This document shows positions 1,540 to 16,594 of a stretch of DNA of 32,662 nt, in pieces (positions within the stretch are counted from its first letter, which is position 1; every line of letters starts with the position of its first letter). The position numbers were made by a program, and so were the translations under genes. Source of the stretch: Candidatus Iainarchaeum sp. (GTDB taxonomy: Archaea; Iainarchaeota; Iainarchaeia; Iainarchaeales; DTGL01); contig JAPLVS010000002.1 in NCBI GenBank assembly GCA_026396995.1, positions 1 to 32,662 on the forward strand. Reading direction: 5' to 3'. The notes beneath the pieces are model-generated. The model worked only from the letters and a program-made list of their open reading frames with translations, had not been told where the DNA came from and did no database searches.

Positions 1540-2424
1540 ATGATTTGGGAGCATGTTGCCTCAAACAAGAGGTCGTCATACCTCTTGTTTTTCTTTTTCT
1601 TTTTGTTCTGCATAGGCATGGGCTTCCTTTTCGGGTTCATTACCGGCTGGGGCTATTTCGGTGCCATACTTGCCCTGATAATAGCAATCCTCATGGCCTT
1701 CTTCACATACTATTATTCGGACACCGTGGTCCTGAAAATCAGCAGGGCAAGGCCTGCAACCCATGAAGAAAACACTTATCTTGACAACACAGTGGACGGA
1801 TTGGCCATTGCCGCAGGCATCCCGAAGCCGAAAATTTATGTTATCGACGACACTGCCCCGAACGCTTTCGCGACAGGAAGGGACCCGCAGCACGCGGTAA
1901 TATGCGTCACCACCGGCCTCATGCAGAAAATGAACCGCGCTGAGCTCGAGGGAGTGATAGCGCATGAAATGTCGCACATTGGAAATTATGACATCAGGTT
2001 CATGATGCTTGTGACAGTAATGGTCGGATTGATTGCATTGCTGAGCGACTGGATGATGCGCTCCTTTTGGTGGGGCGGCGGAAAAAGGGATAACGACAGC
2101 AAGTTCGGCCTGATTTTGCTTGTCATAGCAATTGTGATGGCAATCCTCGCGCCGCTGATTGCAATGCTCATGCAATTGGCGCTTTCAAGGAAACGCGAAT
2201 ATCTCGCGGACGCAAGCGCCGCAATCCTCACAAGATACCCTGAAGGCCTTGCTTCAGCGCTCGAAAAACTCGAAAAGGACACAGAACCGCTTGAAGCCGC
2301 AAACAAGGCCACAGCGCACTTATACATTGTAAACCCGCTCAACGAACACAAGAGCTTTTTGAACAACCTCTTCAACACCCACCCCCCAATCGCGGAAAGG
2401 GTGAAAAGATTAAGGGCAATGTGA
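1540..2424 (+). CDS. htpX: HtpX-like M48 family zinc metalloprotease, membrane
   Basis: HEMSH zinc motif (VIAHEMSHIGNYDIR), NAFATGRDPQHAVICVTTGL, several TM helices; directly downstream of lemA. Confidence 0.95.
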   Translation: MIWEHVASNKRSSYLLFFFFFLFCIGMGFLFGFITGWGYFGAILALIIAILMAFFTYYYSDTVVLKISRARPATHEENTYLDNTVDGLAIAAGIPKPKIYVIDDTAPNAFATGRDPQHAVICVTTGLMQKMNRAELEGVIAHEMSHIGNYDIRFMMLVTVMVGLIALLSDWMMRSFWWGGGKRDNDSKFGLILLVIAIVMAILAPLIAMLMQLALSRKREYLADASAAILTRYPEGLASALEKLEKDTEPLEAANKATAHLYIVNPLNEHKSFLNNLFNTHPPIAERVKRLRAM

Positions 2425-2433
2425 ATCGGCCAG

Positions 2434-2589
2434 TCAATAGCCGGCTTTTTTGATTTCTTTCGCCAGCTTTTCAGGCATCGGCCTGCACTTGCAGTGTTTT
2501 TCGTGCTCGATGTGCCATTTTGCCCTTTGCTCAAAAGTGGGATTTTTTGGCATTTTGTTTTTCAAATGCCAGTCCTTGTTTAGGGCCAT
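2434..2589 (-). CDS. Small (51 aa) conserved-looking protein, His/Cys-rich
   Basis: Manual translation of the minus strand: MALNKDWHLKNKMPKNPTFEQRAKWHIEHEKHCKCRPMPEKLAKEIKKAGY*. Fills the htpX/lipoprotein intergenic region; below the size cutoff of the ORF track. Confidence 0.75.
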   Translation of the reverse strand: MALNKDWHLKNKMPKNPTFEQRAKWHIEHEKHCKCRPMPEKLAKEIKKAGY

Positions 2590-2637
2590 AAATATGCCTT
2601 TTGCAGTTTTGTTCTTTTAACTTATAGCCCAGAAAAC

Positions 2638-2645
2638 TATTTAAA
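2638..2645 (+). promoter_or_regulatory. Candidate archaeal TATA box (tatttaaa) for the repeat lipoprotein gene
   Basis: About 22-28 nt upstream of the ATG at 2667, a spacing consistent with a leaderless transcript. Confidence 0.5.
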
Positions 2646-2666
2646 CAAGCAATCCAATATAATTGC

Positions 2667-4355
2667 ATGAATCAAAAGCTTTCCTTTGTGACATTCTTTA
2701 TTGCAATTTTATGCCTTGCGTTTTTGCAAGGGTGCACAGCACCCACAATGCCAGCAACACCCTCGCCGACACCGAGCGCAACTTCTGCCCAGCCAGACAT
2801 TAACTCTATGGGTCTTCCAGACTGCGAAAAAGTCAAAGACCAAAGCCAAAAGGACGCCTGCTATTCATATGCTGCTGGTTCTGCAAAAGACATTTCCATT
2901 TGCGAAAAAATACAAATGCCAAGCTGGAAAGATTATTGCTATCGCAATGCCGCTGTGGCCACACAAGACCCGTTAATATGCGAAAAAATACAAGGAGTTG
3001 TAGAAGGCTCGAAAGATTCCTGCTACCACGATGTCGCTGTCGCCAAGCAAGACCAGTCAATTTGCGAAAAAATACAGGGGTTTGGAGTTGGCTGGAAAGA
3101 TTCCTGCTACCACGATGTCGCTGTCGCCAAGCAAGACCTGGCAGTCTGCGAAAAAATAAAAGGGTCAGCCGATTCCTGCTATAGCGATGTTGCCGTGGAA
3201 AAACAAGACCCCCTAATTTGCGAAAAATTACAGGAACAGTACATGAGAGATTCCTGTGATACTGCTGTTGCGGTTGCTGCAAAAGATTCCTCAATCTGCG
3301 AAAAAATCGAAGAGCAAAAGGGCCAGGATTCCTGCTATAAGGGTGCCGCAGTTGCTGCAAAAGATTCCTCAATCTGCGAAAAAATACAAGACCAAGGCGG
3401 CAAAGACCGTTGCTATAGTTCTGTTGCTTTGGCAAAACAAGATTTTTCAACCTGCGACAAAATCGAGGACCAAAACAGCGAATACATTTGCTATGCAGAT
3501 GTAGCCGTGGAAAAACAAGACCTTACAATCTGCGATAAAATCCAAAACCAAGCAGTCAAAGACAGATGCTATTTGGAGATTGCAAAAACAAAACAAGACA
3601 TTTCCATCTGCAACAGAATCCAAACCATATATATCCAAGGCGATTGCTTTTTCCATTTTGCAGTAAAAACTGACGACATCTCAATCTGCGAAAAAATACA
3701 AAGCCAATCTGAAAAAGACGATTGCTATTGGGCTTTTGCCGTGGCAGAAAAAGACCCTTCCTTATGTGAAAAAATAAAAGAAAACCAGTACGAGTGCTAT
3801 TCTGCTTTTGTCGAAACCACAGACTATCTTTCAGTCTGCGAAAAAACCCAGGACCAGCTAAGCAGGGATACCTGCTATTACATGTTTGCCGGGGCAAAAC
3901 AGGACATTTCAGCTTGCGAAAAAATCACCACTGAGTATCACAAAAACAACTGTTACTCTGAGATTGCAAGGGCAAAACAGGACATTTCGATTTGCGAAAA
4001 AATACAAGATCAATCCGAAAAAGACCATTGTTATGAAGTTGTTGCTGAGGAAAAACTAGACGAGGCAATTTGTGCAAAAATACAAACCAAAGCGCTTAAG
4101 GATAACTGCTATTTTGAGATTGCAAAGGAAAAACAAGACATTTCCATCTGCAGCAAAATACAAGGCAGTAAGGACGATTGCTATTCTGGTGTCGCTGTTG
4201 CCAAGCAAGAGCAATCCCTATGCGAAAAAATACAAGGCCAAGAAATCAAAGATGACTGCTACCAGACTGTTGCCGTTTACACTGGCAACCTTTTGATTTG
4301 CGACAAAATCCAGGACCAAACAACCAAAGATACTTGCCTTGCTTATGCACAGTAA
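2667..4355 (+). CDS. Predicted lipoprotein with about 20 tandem Cys-pair repeats
   Basis: Signal peptide plus lipobox-like LQGC, Pro/Thr/Ser linker, then repeats approximating ICEKIQ-x(n)-KDxCYxxVAVAKQDxS. Confidence 0.9.
   Translation: MNQKLSFVTFFIAILCLAFLQGCTAPTMPATPSPTPSATSAQPDINSMGLPDCEKVKDQSQKDACYSYAAGSAKDISICEKIQMPSWKDYCYRNAAVATQDPLICEKIQGVVEGSKDSCYHDVAVAKQDQSICEKIQGFGVGWKDSCYHDVAVAKQDLAVCEKIKGSADSCYSDVAVEKQDPLICEKLQEQYMRDSCDTAVAVAAKDSSICEKIEEQKGQDSCYKGAAVAAKDSSICEKIQDQGGKDRCYSSVALAKQDFSTCDKIEDQNSEYICYADVAVEKQDLTICDKIQNQAVKDRCYLEIAKTKQDISICNRIQTIYIQGDCFFHFAVKTDDISICEKIQSQSEKDDCYWAFAVAEKDPSLCEKIKENQYECYSAFVETTDYLSVCEKTQDQLSRDTCYYMFAGAKQDISACEKITTEYHKNNCYSEIARAKQDISICEKIQDQSEKDHCYEVVAEEKLDEAICAKIQTKALKDNCYFEIAKEKQDISICSKIQGSKDDCYSGVAVAKQEQSLCEKIQGQEIKDDCYQTVAVYTGNLLICDKIQDQTTKDTCLAYAQ
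2820..4352 (+). repeat. Degenerate tandem repeat, about 26 aa (about 78 nt) period, roughly 20 copies
   Basis: Recurring tgcgaaaaaata...gattcctgctat units in frame; most units 24-28 aa with two Cys each. Confidence 0.9.
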
Positions 4356-4401: not shown

Positions 4402-4572
4402 CGCCGAGAGAGGGATTTGAACCCCCGCATGCCAGAGGCATACCAGCTTGCTCTTGCCTGAAAAAACGAACAATCGTTTCTTTCTTTTGGGCAACTTACA
4501 CTTTTCTTTCTTTGGAAAAGAAAGAAAAGGGCATCTCGAGGCTGGCGCGTTAGACCACTCCGCCATCTCGGC
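4402..4572 (-). tRNA. tRNA-Ser(CGA) with an 86-nt intron at 37/38 (intron 4449..4534)
   Basis: Acceptor GCCGAGA/TCTCGGC, anticodon stem CCAGC/GCTGG, loop CTCGAG|A, long variable arm, T-arm GGGGG-TTCAAAT-CCCTC. BHB-like splice sites AG^A and CA^A. Confidence 0.9.
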
Positions 4573-9450: not shown

Positions 9451-11712
9451 ATGCCGGACAAAAAAAGCATTATTCTGGAATCGGTCAGGAAACTGATTGC
9501 ACTGGACCTGAGCGAGGACGAAATAATAAGGAATCTGAGAGACGTCGGCATAGGCGAAAAGGACGCAAAACAGATTCTGATGGAAGTAAGGGGCGTGAAA
9601 AAAGAGGCGCCCAAGCTGCTGCCCTCAAAGCCAATGCCGATGCCTGAACCAGAGCCTGAACCGGATGAAGAGCTGCCTGAAACGCTGCCTGACGCCGAAG
9701 AAGACCTTATGAGAAGGCTTTCCGAAGGCCTCGATGAGGATTCGGACAAGAAAAAGGACAGGGAATCCTGGGAAAAAGCCGTAATGGCGACAGTCAACAA
9801 AAAGGCAGATGAAATAAAGACGATAAAGGAAGAGCTGGATTCAACGCTTGACAGGAAAGTCAAGGAAGGCCTTGACAGGGAATACAAGAAAATTTCCACT
9901 TTAATCAATTCGAAAAGCGCGCTTTTAAGCGAAAAAATAGGCTCTGACATGGAGGAAAAGAAAAGGGAAGTCGACCAAATCCTCGAGCAAAGGGTAAAAG
10001 AGATAAGGAAAATAAACGAGGAAATGAAGCGCGGCCTCGAGGAATTAAGCGAATGGGAGAAAAAGCACGAAAAATTAAGGGCCGAAATAGACGAAATAGG
10101 CAAAAAAATCGAGAACACGAAAGCCGAAGGGCTTACCCAGCTGCTTGCGAAAGGAAAGGAAAACAGTGATGAATTAAGGGCGTTTGTCGAAAAGGCAAGA
10201 AAGGAAATCGACGAGGAAATAGAGGCATTCGGCAAGGACTTCGAAGCAGACAAGGCTGCAACCGCAAAAGAACTTGAGGCGGCCAGGGATGCTTCGCTTA
10301 AGGAAATGCTCAAAGAAAAAGAAGCGACCAAAAAAGACATAAGGGACGAGCAGAAGGGCAGAGTGAAGGCACTGCAGGCAGAACTCGAGGAAAAAAGGGT
10401 CACTCATTTAAAAGAACTGGATTCCGTGCTCGCGGAGCGGTTCGACAAAGCCCAAAAGGATTTCACGGAAATGAAAACAGCCCTTTTCTCGGAAGTCGAA
10501 GACACGCTCAAGGATTCAAGGAATGAAACCGAAGATTTCGTCGCCAAAGCCCAGGCGGAAATCAAGAGGCTGGACTCGCGCGTCACAAAAACCCTCGAAT
10601 TGGAATCTGAAGTCATAGAGGACGTGATGAACGAGGCAAGGGAAAAAATCGAAAGGGTGAAATTCGAGAATCAAAAGGATCTCGAGGCGAAAATAAACGA
10701 GGAAATCAGGAAATTCGGGGAACTGGTCGAAAAAATCGACCCGGAAAAAGTGAAGGCGAAAATCGCGGACCTCGAAAAAACAAAGGAAAGGATAAGGGCG
10801 GAAATAAGCAGGACAATAAACGAGCAGGTTTCAGGCATCGAAAAGGAGTACAGCGAAAAAATAAGGAAAAGGCTCGCGGAAATAGAGGAAAAAAGCGCGC
10901 AGACAAACAAAAAACTCGAGGAAACGATTGCGGACGCCCAGAAAAAGGCGAAAGAAATCGAGGGCATAGACAAGGACATCGATGATAAAATCACAAAAAG
11001 AATGAACGAAATAGAAAAGGAATACAGCGAAAAGGTCAAGCCGAGGATAAGCGAAATAGAGGGCATGAAAAAAGGCTATGACGAAAAAATAATCGAAATA
11101 AACAGGCAGATCCAGGAAATGGAAAAAGAAAAAGGCAAGCTGGTGGTGCAGCTCAACTCCGAAATAATAAAGTCGAAAAGCGAGCTCAAAGACTTCCAGA
11201 AAACAACGCAGGAAGAAATGAAGGCGCTTTCGGCGCAGGCCTCTGACATCGTGAACAGGAAGGCAGCGCTCATGAAAGGCCTCGAGCCCTACGCAGCAAT
11301 GGACCTGCTTACAATACGGAGAAAGCTCGCGCAGGCCGTATTAAAGGAAATGGAAGCCTCGATGACGGCCAAGCTGAAGGAAAACATTGACGCAATGGAA
11401 AAAGCAAAGGCGCAGGCGCGCGCCGAAGCCCTGAAAGCTGTCGGCGCAGAAGAACTGCAGGCAAGGGTGAGGGAATTGAACCTTTTCAAGGAGCAGTTCC
11501 TCAAGGCGATAGACATGAACATCGAGAAATTCAACCAGCGCATCCATGCCTTCAACAGCACATCAAAGCAGATGGAAGCCCAGTTCAGCCTGAGACTGAA
11601 AATGATCGACCAGAAAATGGACGAACTCGACAAATTCGAGAAAAACTTCTCGAAAGCAATCGGCGCCAGCCTCGACAAAATGCAGCAGGCCCCCAAAGAA
11701 GAAAAAAAATAA
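9451..11712 (+). CDS. Long coiled-coil protein, 753 aa, SMC/myosin-like composition
   Basis: Extended E/K/R/A-rich heptad-like sequence; N-terminal small helical domain (SVRKLIALDLSEDEIIRNLRDVGIGEKDAKQILMEVRG). No TM helix seen. Confidence 0.88.
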   Translation: MPDKKSIILESVRKLIALDLSEDEIIRNLRDVGIGEKDAKQILMEVRGVKKEAPKLLPSKPMPMPEPEPEPDEELPETLPDAEEDLMRRLSEGLDEDSDKKKDRESWEKAVMATVNKKADEIKTIKEELDSTLDRKVKEGLDREYKKISTLINSKSALLSEKIGSDMEEKKREVDQILEQRVKEIRKINEEMKRGLEELSEWEKKHEKLRAEIDEIGKKIENTKAEGLTQLLAKGKENSDELRAFVEKARKEIDEEIEAFGKDFEADKAATAKELEAARDASLKEMLKEKEATKKDIRDEQKGRVKALQAELEEKRVTHLKELDSVLAERFDKAQKDFTEMKTALFSEVEDTLKDSRNETEDFVAKAQAEIKRLDSRVTKTLELESEVIEDVMNEAREKIERVKFENQKDLEAKINEEIRKFGELVEKIDPEKVKAKIADLEKTKERIRAEISRTINEQVSGIEKEYSEKIRKRLAEIEEKSAQTNKKLEETIADAQKKAKEIEGIDKDIDDKITKRMNEIEKEYSEKVKPRISEIEGMKKGYDEKIIEINRQIQEMEKEKGKLVVQLNSEIIKSKSELKDFQKTTQEEMKALSAQASDIVNRKAALMKGLEPYAAMDLLTIRRKLAQAVLKEMEASMTAKLKENIDAMEKAKAQARAEALKAVGAEELQARVRELNLFKEQFLKAIDMNIEKFNQRIHAFNSTSKQMEAQFSLRLKMIDQKMDELDKFEKNFSKAIGASLDKMQQAPKEEKK

Positions 11713-14579: not shown

Positions 14580-14616
14580 AACTGGTTTTATTTCTTTGCC
14601 ACTAAAAACTATTTTA

Positions 14617-15405
14617 ATGGAAAAGCCTGATTTTGTCATTGTCCGCGGAGAGCACCGCAACGAAATAACAGCTTTTTATCTGGCTCCACAGGTAGCGGTA
14701 AGGCTAAGGAAAATGGGTTATACAGTAAAAGTCGAGACCGTGCCAAGGGAAGTTAGCATGACGGGATTCATGCAAAACGTTGACCCTGCCAAAAGAAGCT
14801 TTAGCCATGAACGCGAAATAATTAAAGCTTATGAAAAGGGCAGGGTTGATTGGCAGAATGGAATAGCTGAAAGATATTATGGGTCCACAATAGTTGACTT
14901 TCACAATGATTTTGGGGCATTCAATGAGCCTCCGCCAAAAGACGGGCCTTGGAAATGGCGCGGTTCACTCGAATTGGGAAAAAAAGGGGCATTCATCAGC
15001 TGGAGCCGAGCAACAACAAGAATGGGCTCTTACACCCCCATAGAAATTCCGGCTGTTTTCAAACCGATTAAATCAAAGGCAATAAGGGACAGCCACTTCA
15101 CTTTTCAGGAAGGCATTCACTTCCGCGGACACCACAGGACCGACAGAGAATGGTCCAAAAAGCTCGGCTGGACCGGAAAAGAAATGGTTCAAGCCCTGGT
15201 TGAAACCGCGCTTGAGATAAGGAAAGGTTCAGGAAGGGGGTTTAGGGAAATCCCTACAAACATGGCTGCGTACAGGAAAATGAAATTGATGGTGGCGGAC
15301 AGGATAAGGAAAGAAAGAGGGCTTCCGTTAATGAAGCCTGCAAAAAAAAGATTAAGTGAAAGATGGCCATTCAGCCGGATGAGAAGAACCGCAAAACACA
15401 AATAA
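14617..15405 (+). CDS. M14 (AstE/ASPA)-like putative metallohydrolase, paralogue A
   Basis: IVRGEHRNEITAF (HxxE), TIVDFHNDFGAF, PIEIPAVFKP, FRGHHRTD. Strong similarity to 15788..16594. M14 assignment is inferred. Confidence 0.7.
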   Translation: MEKPDFVIVRGEHRNEITAFYLAPQVAVRLRKMGYTVKVETVPREVSMTGFMQNVDPAKRSFSHEREIIKAYEKGRVDWQNGIAERYYGSTIVDFHNDFGAFNEPPPKDGPWKWRGSLELGKKGAFISWSRATTRMGSYTPIEIPAVFKPIKSKAIRDSHFTFQEGIHFRGHHRTDREWSKKLGWTGKEMVQALVETALEIRKGSGRGFREIPTNMAAYRKMKLMVADRIRKERGLPLMKPAKKRLSERWPFSRMRRTAKHK

Positions 15406-15441: not shown

Positions 15442-15795
15442 ATGCAAGAAAAACTGCCAGGCTTCAGGGAAGCACGCGACCTCGCTGAATTGAACGCAGC
15501 ACTGCAGGACAGCAAAGCGAAGGCGGTGCTGTTTAGGTCTGGGCGCTCGAAAAGCTTTGATTTGCAGGCATTGAAAAAGGCCGCCGAGAGCGGCAAGGAA
15601 TTCTATGTTTCTTTCGAAGAATTTCTTGAGGGAGACCAGCGCGAAAGAAAAGAACTGTTCAAAAACTTTTTCTCCCTGTTTAAAATCGCAAAAAAGGCAA
15701 AATTGCAAATCAAAATCCTTGGCTCAGGAAAAGAATCGGAAGAAGAACTGGAATTTTTTGGTGAATTTCTGGGAAAGGGCGGGAAACATGGCTGA
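15442..15795 (+). CDS. Short RNase P component 3 (Rpp30)-like protein, apparently half length
   Basis: AVLFRSGRSKSFDLQALKKAAESGKEFYVSFEEFLEGDQRERKELFKNFFSLFKIAKKAKLQIKILGSGKESEEELEFFGEFLG resembles the C-terminal half of archaeal Rnp3; located downstream of rpl15e. Confidence 0.55.
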   Translation: MQEKLPGFREARDLAELNAALQDSKAKAVLFRSGRSKSFDLQALKKAAESGKEFYVSFEEFLEGDQRERKELFKNFFSLFKIAKKAKLQIKILGSGKESEEELEFFGEFLGKGGKHG

Positions 15796-16594
15796 GAAGC
15801 CTGACATTGTGATAATCCGCGGTGACCACCGCAACGAAATAACGGCTTTCCAGCTCGCCCCGGAAGTGGCAGCAAGGCTGCAGGAAATGGGTCACACTGT
15901 AAAAGTCGAGACCGTGCCAAGGGAAATCAGCATGATGGGTTATATGCTTCAAGTCGACCCTTCAAAGAGAAATTGGAAAAATACACCGGACGTACTCAAT
16001 GCAATGATAAAAGCACAGGATGACTGGTATAAAAAAACAGCCGAAAGATATGGCGGAGCAACAATAGTGGACTTCCACAATGAACTCGGTGCTTTCAACG
16101 AGCCTAGCCCAATAATGGACGGCGTAAATGAATTGCGCGGGTTTCTGGAAAAAAGAGAAAAAGCACGCATTACCTTTTCCAAGTATGGTTCTGAGCGAGG
16201 ATTCATTACTTATCTTGAAATTCCCGCTGTCTACAAGCCAATCAAAGCCAAAGTTGTAAACGAAAGTCATTTCCCTTTGGAAGTCGGCGTATCCTTCCGC
16301 GGGCACCATCGAGTCGATCTGGAGTGGTCGCAAAATCTCGGCTGGGCCGGAAAAGAAATGGTTCAAGCGCTTGCGGAAACAGTTGCCGACATAAAAATAA
16401 GGGGGTTGGGATTTGGTTCCAGGGCAATCCGTACAAATATGAAGGCATACCGGCAAATGAAAAGGCAGCTGGCAAAAAGGATAAGGATAGAAAGCGGAAT
16501 CCAGCCGGCAGAACCATGGCCGAAAAGGGAAAGGAGCGCAACAGAAACAAAAACGCGAAAAGGATGGTTCAGGCTGAGGCGGGCAAGGGCATAA
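15788..16594 (+). CDS. M14 (AstE/ASPA)-like putative metallohydrolase, paralogue B
   Basis: IIRGDHRNEITAF, TIVDFHNELGAF, YLEIPAVYKP, FRGHHRVD. ATG at 15788 overlaps the upstream ORF by 8 nt. Confidence 0.7.
   Translation: MAEKPDIVIIRGDHRNEITAFQLAPEVAARLQEMGHTVKVETVPREISMMGYMLQVDPSKRNWKNTPDVLNAMIKAQDDWYKKTAERYGGATIVDFHNELGAFNEPSPIMDGVNELRGFLEKREKARITFSKYGSERGFITYLEIPAVYKPIKAKVVNESHFPLEVGVSFRGHHRVDLEWSQNLGWAGKEMVQALAETVADIKIRGLGFGSRAIRTNMKAYRQMKRQLAKRIRIESGIQPAEPWPKRERSATETKTRKGWFRLRRARA

Follow-up and report, generated by a model that had tools for sequence, protein, structure and literature searches.

The window analysed here, a stretch of 32,662 nucleotides from the genome of a Diapherotrites archaeon (Candidatus Iainarchaeum sp.), carries on its plus strand, at positions 2667-4355, an open reading frame running from ATG to TAA and encoding a protein of 562 residues, whose features are listed in Table 1. 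A signal peptide, an LQGC site and a low-complexity linker, all described in an earlier note on this DNA, are seen in the translation. The same note had counted about 20 units of about 24-28 aa with about 40 cysteines, and segmentation of the array gives 20 units of 24-28 aa, mostly 26, starting at residues 53, 79, 105 and so on up to 545, with exactly 40 cysteines; C16 in the signal peptide and C23 in the lipobox bring the total to 42. Each unit consists of a short helix (SIC1EKI), a variable loop, a long helix (xxKDxC2YxxVAxAKQ) and a turn (D-x), C1 and C2 being its two cysteines. The LQGC motif lies at residues 20-23, downstream of the hydrophobic segment, as in prokaryotic lipoproteins, and lipidation of the protein is predicted. 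Across the family, 50 of 52 arrays are preceded by a hydrophobic anchor segment and 28 of the 52 by a lipobox-like site; anchoring of the window protein at the cell surface, predicted from its anchor segment and lipobox, is supported.

Table 1. Features of the repeat-protein gene and its leader (positions in the window)
Feature	Position	Strand	Basis
37-nt leader with TATA-like TTTAAA, putative promoter	2630..2666	+	common to paralogues L002, L003 and L005
Signal peptide, residues 1-22 (MNQKLSFVTFFIAILCLAFLQG)	2667..2732	+	translation; hydrophobic segment, maximum KD17 2.39
Lipobox Cys C23 (LQGC), predicted lipid attachment site	2733..2735	+	sequence; LQGC also in L002, L003 and L005
P/T/S/A-rich linker, residues 24-52	2736..2822	+	translation
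20-unit two-Cys array, residues 53-562	2823..4352	+	segmentation; AlphaFold2 pLDDT 93.9; circular-profile alignment
Units 3 and 4, latest tandem duplication within the array	2979..3146	+	unit-by-unit DNA comparison, codons

The signal peptide of the window protein resembles those of three paralogues in the same genome (L002, L003 and L005) at 67-79% DNA identity. These paralogues share a leader of about 37 nt that is 89-95% identical among them, and to which the window leader is similar, although it appears offset by one base, with an ungapped identity of 54-59%; it is probably a leaderless promoter. Further upstream, beyond the leader, the sequences of the window gene and its paralogues are unrelated, and scans for sigma-70 promoters and terminators returned no more than expected by chance. 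Within the array, units 3 and 4 are 91% identical in DNA and differ at codons 5-11, near the unit start, and at the last three codons.

The neighbours of the gene in the window include LemA, an M48 peptidase, an M50 peptidase and a tRNA gene, and neither the neighbours nor the fused domains indicate a specific target for the array. The tRNA gene (4402-4572, minus strand), which has a long insertion and adjoins the window gene, is like a tRNA at 2264-2436 (minus strand) of locus L008, which adjoins another paralogue. Both are about 171-173 bases long and were detected by Rfam, ARAGORN having missed the window copy; a shared readthrough peptide suggests that they are the same tRNA, probably a tRNA-Ser. 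Of the seven paralogue loci of the source genome that were scanned with separate genes, three contain a tRNA, and such sites are a possible candidate for an insertion hot spot. Elsewhere in the window, positions 9451-11709 (plus strand) encode a charged, coiled-coil-like protein of 753 aa with no Pfam match, and two adjacent related proteins, FVIVRGEHRNEITAFYLAP and DIVIIRGDHRNEITAFQLAP, are encoded at 14596-15402 and 15605-16594 (plus strand); a Pfam search with the first of the pair gave no match.

Predicted fold and cysteine pairing

Structure prediction of the mature chain, which had been proposed as a check on the idea of a helical-hairpin solenoid, was carried out with AlphaFold2 on residues 49-562 of the window protein together with 15 relatives, and returned an ordered and confident model (pLDDT 93.9, pTM 0.68) in which helices of about 15 and about 6 residues alternate. 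An identical alternation was predicted for a distant relative belonging to a different family of the phylum (pLDDT 87.4, using three orthologue-like rows 27-38% identical to the query). The window protein is therefore predicted, with high confidence, to be an alpha/alpha solenoid, in line with the earlier proposal. Foldseek searches gave no match at E <= 1e-3 among viral structures or in the PDB, where the best E was 2.8e-3 with a TM of 0.16-0.17; the nearest structures (TM below 0.3) were generic TPR-like solenoids, a likeness general to alpha/alpha solenoids, and no significant fold match assigns the protein to the TPR or to other PDB alpha-solenoids.

The closest parallel in way of working is found in the Helicobacter cysteine-rich proteins HcpB and HcpC, exported alpha/alpha solenoids with regular disulfides from host-associated bacteria (PMC3851747; PMC2581425). 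Like these Sel1-like (PF08238) proteins, the window protein is predicted to be an exported alpha/alpha solenoid with regular disulfides; however, Hcp repeats are 36 aa long and those of PF08238 36-38 aa, whereas the window units measure 24-28 aa with a helix pair of 15 and 6 residues. The PF08238 profile matched neither the window protein (E <= 10), nor nine relatives (E <= 1), nor seven more proteins (E <= 0.01). The Hcp disulfide ties each repeat, at its end, to the beginning of the following one, whereas pairing in the window protein would run across the loop, a difference in which the repeat start is a matter of definition. The window protein works like the disulfide-bridged Hcp/Sel1 solenoids and is not a member of that family, given its repeat length and the misfit to the profile.

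Within the units of the window protein the C1-C2 spacing is 10 in three units, 12 in 15 and 14 in two, while all 19 distances from a C2 to the following C1 equal 14. A spacing of about 10-16 between two cysteines per unit had been noted earlier; the two cysteines stand, and the spacing takes the values 10, 12 or 14 rather than a continuum. Since the C2-next C1 distance is fixed, the indels are confined to the C1-loop-C2 segment, as expected if, according to the same note, the loop between the helices absorbs them. For the analysis of pairing, 495 units from 52 arrays were aligned to a circular profile of 26 columns. Both C1 and C2 are cysteine in 486 of the 495; the C1-C2 spacing lies between 9 and 27 and equals 12 in 350 of the 486, and the C2 to next C1 spacing is 14 in 414 of 452. 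The two-Cys pattern is not a product of chance, because it recurs in at least eight paralogues of the same genome and in the 495 units of the 52 arrays.

All 18 best-scoring arrays start with C1 and finish with C2, and among the lower-scoring arrays, in which 20 phase exceptions were flagged, the partner cysteine lies just past the aligned end in 19 of the 20, as read by eye from the flanks. Bonding between C2 and the next C1 would leave an orphan cysteine at each array end, and the array phase therefore favours a C1-C2 bond across the loop; single-Cys losses were too few for a test of co-loss. The even number of array cysteines, forming 20 C1-C2 pairs in fixed phase, is that of a disulfide-bonded exported protein. 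One putative C1-C2 disulfide per unit, spanning the variable loop, is the best supported arrangement, and the single disulfide per repeat proposed earlier gains support from the array phase, the near-total retention of the cysteines and a thioredoxin-fold protein of the genome that is anchored in the membrane, has a WCPHC motif and may take part in their oxidation. Against it, VKOR was not found in the source genome (92.8% complete), nor was Thioredoxin_4; VKOR is missing from 88 of the 92 genomes of the phylum and Thioredoxin_4 is present in 66 of the 92, its presence having no evident link (judged without statistics) to that of the repeat.

Family and distribution

The source genome encodes at least eight paralogues of about 5-20 units each, and unit number across relatives varies from about 4 to 22. 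When the whole protein was used as query in contig searches no relatives were recovered; a three-row alignment of consensus-like units found them. A profile search across archaeal and CPR genomes, proposed in the earlier note, was run with a two-unit profile at E <= 1e-8 and detected the repeat in 53 of 92 Diapherotrites genomes, in 117 of 333 genomes of the Nanoarchaeota phylum (that of a Nanoarchaeia genome), in 12 of 382 Patescibacteria genomes, the seed genome counted, and in one of 288 Bdellovibrionota genomes. The repeat is common in DPANN archaea and rare in CPR bacteria. The single Bdellovibrionota genome is the seed, Halobacteriovorax; its match lies on one contig only and is read as contamination or else as a rare transfer. 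Named relatives include Liptonbacteria, Parcubacteria, Paceibacterota, Altiarchaeales and Aenigmatarchaeota; the best bacterial match has 65% identity and lies on a contig whose neighbouring ORFs read as ordinary bacterial genes. L009, a relative from the same family, corresponds to locus L054 (Candidatus Diapherotrites archaeon Meg22_1214_Bin_231), in keeping with the placement of the source organism in Diapherotrites. The two repeat genes of a record binned as Mollicutes (L060) recur on a Paceibacterota contig (L059), and the record is probably a case of binning contamination of a public genome.

Several members differ around the array. In a same-family genome (L019), a DUF6438 domain at residues 76-175 is fused to the repeat array (E = 1.1e-12), and in L059 a weak Lcl_C match lies beside it. 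A divergent subfamily (L028, L048 and the own-genome L008) has a YVCSDGTTVxDKxLCP-type motif between lipobox and array, in two copies in L008. In addition, an Altiarchaeales repeat lipoprotein is adjoined by a DUF3160 lipoprotein (L062:6633-9038) whose signal peptide and linker are almost the same, which gives the impression of reused anchor cassettes.

Searches with the window protein against Pfam, NCBIfam and PDB sequences returned nothing above chance-level scores (E <= 10), PHROGs gave a best E of 0.037, which is not significant, and no annotated phage matched the repeat. One plasmid match, to a Shewanella Ig-like protein at 23% identity, was read as a Cys-driven chance similarity and discarded. 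No published description of the repeat was found in a targeted search of open-licence literature. The family is new to the protein-family and structure libraries searched; a characterised family with another function, which the earlier note had named as grounds for giving up its reading, was found neither in Pfam, NCBIfam and the PDB nor in that literature.

The variable face of the long helix

Among the 69 units of the source genome, positions 8, 9, 12, 15, 16 and 19 are hypervariable, with entropies of 3.35-3.88 bits against at most 2.57 elsewhere, and a helical wheel places these positions together on a single side of the long helix (permutation p = 0.002). For the 384 units of all higher-scoring arrays, the entropy moment of helix A has p = 0.023. 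For pairs of source-genome units that share 75% identity or more, dN/dS is 1.39 on the face and 0.12 elsewhere, the face value being partly built in, as the columns had been picked for their variability. Only the bacterial arrays provide an independent test, the columns having been picked in archaeal units: in L051, a Liptonbacteria array with 81% DNA identity between its units, dN/dS reaches 2.54 on the face and 0.39 elsewhere (like the own-genome values, these are Nei-Gojobori estimates, which are rough where codons have been hit more than once), and a permutation of columns gives p = 0.004. The framework codons of this array hardly differ from one another, and several on the face vary at bases 1-2 with base 3 unchanged. 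Base 1-2 change on the face amounts to 4.3 times the base-3 change elsewhere. In 16 of 16 arrays examined, base 1-2 change on the face equals or exceeds base-3 change elsewhere. A diversity-generating retroelement was considered as the source of this variation and judged unlikely, several variable codons of L051 keeping base 3, all bases occurring at positions 1-2, and the array being tandem.

Three orthologues from one related genus behave otherwise, their faces being under purifying selection (pN 0.21-0.30 vs a saturated pS of 0.72-0.75). The excess of amino-acid-changing substitutions on the face is found between young units and not between older orthologues. Continuous diversification finds no support in the orthologue comparison, which gives purifying selection with saturated silent sites, and the sequence data fit a face that diversified after unit duplication and was then conserved.

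Possible roles of the putative stapled solenoids

In the Helicobacter pylori type IV secretion system, the protein CagY exposes tandem alpha-helical Cys modules on the surface, which are altered by in-frame duplication and deletion (PMC2581425). The window array resembles the CagY repeat region in its tandem alpha-helical modules and regularly placed cysteines, a likeness by description only; unlike it, the CagY modules are 38-39 aa long, lie in a secretion-system protein and comprise six submotifs, four of which have cysteine. Cys-rich exported proteins of Peribacteria, ultra-small CPR bacteria, vary between strains and have been proposed to act in attachment (PMC4736985); they are very large, at about 1,655 aa, weakly resemble pappalysin and the Cys-rich repeats of Myxococcus, and are likened to the 26-aa unit by description only. 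Further likenesses concern a way of working and imply no homology. Ankyrin repeats and the lamprey VLR are repeat scaffolds with a conserved core and a hypervariable face, and mycoplasma variable surface lipoproteins combine a constant signal peptide with variable exposed residues.

The reading that we favour, at a probability of roughly 0.55, is that the lipid-anchored, disulfide-stapled solenoid acts as a modular extracellular binder or adhesin. The gene product would be exported and lipid-anchored as an alpha/alpha solenoid, and the C1-C2 disulfide, spanning the loop before the long helix, would yield a stiff rod that resists proteases and has no large hydrophobic core. The conserved residues would serve in packing, and positions 8, 9, 12, 15, 16 and 19 would face outward on the long helix, so that about 120 freely variable side chains may stand in register along the 20 units. 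Such a face may bind external partners, for instance surface glycans or proteins that belong to a host, to a partner cell or to a matrix, with specificity shifting by unit duplication, by swaps of face residues and through several paralogues behind a common promoter and signal peptide. Adhesion or host-cell contact, suggested in the earlier note as a possible function, is strengthened by the hypervariable helix face and is kept here as a proposal.

The same rod could instead be a passive stalk, sheath or envelope scaffold that spaces the cell surface or another protein, its variable residues being unconstrained and its unit number a matter of length. The wide range of unit numbers between relatives, the P/T/S linker and the domains flanking the array in several members (DUF6438 in L019, the weak Lcl_C match in L059) would suit this role; however, neutral exposure predicts a face dN/dS near 1, and young arrays lie above it, with 2.54 in L051 and a 4.3-fold excess of base 1-2 change on the face, so that a passive stalk appears unlikely. 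Somewhat less likely still is a diversified target, in which an abundant surface protein alters its exposed face to evade viruses, predators or grazers: positive diversification of exposed residues, with leader and signal peptide kept constant across a multigene family, recalls antigenic variation, but the faces are preserved in the orthologues of one related genus, and we know of no virus or predator that uses the repeat protein. That the 40 cysteines remain reduced, as a reservoir that binds soft metals or buffers redox outside the cell, would agree with the lack of VKOR in the genome and in most of the phylum; this seems very improbable, as the unit has neither CxxC nor Cys clusters, exactly two cysteines recur per unit in fixed phase, and the genome has the membrane-anchored WCPHC protein.

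To our knowledge, host recognition by episymbiotic DPANN archaea and CPR bacteria is largely unknown. It may be proposed, tentatively and as a rather doubtful extension of the binder reading, that in DPANN archaea and patchily in CPR bacteria the stapled solenoids form a diversifying repertoire of surface binders for choosing or holding partner cells, in which young arrays would duplicate units while the exposed face is positively selected, in a VLR-like manner, the module having moved between domains. The repeat family is absent from the libraries searched and enriched in DPANN; predicted to lie outside the cell and bearing a diversifying face, it constitutes a concrete and expressible candidate for recognition, and the 26-residue disulfide-stapled solenoid may also serve as a compact binder scaffold. 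If binding holds true, the molecules that DPANN and CPR cells recognise would become a directly testable question.
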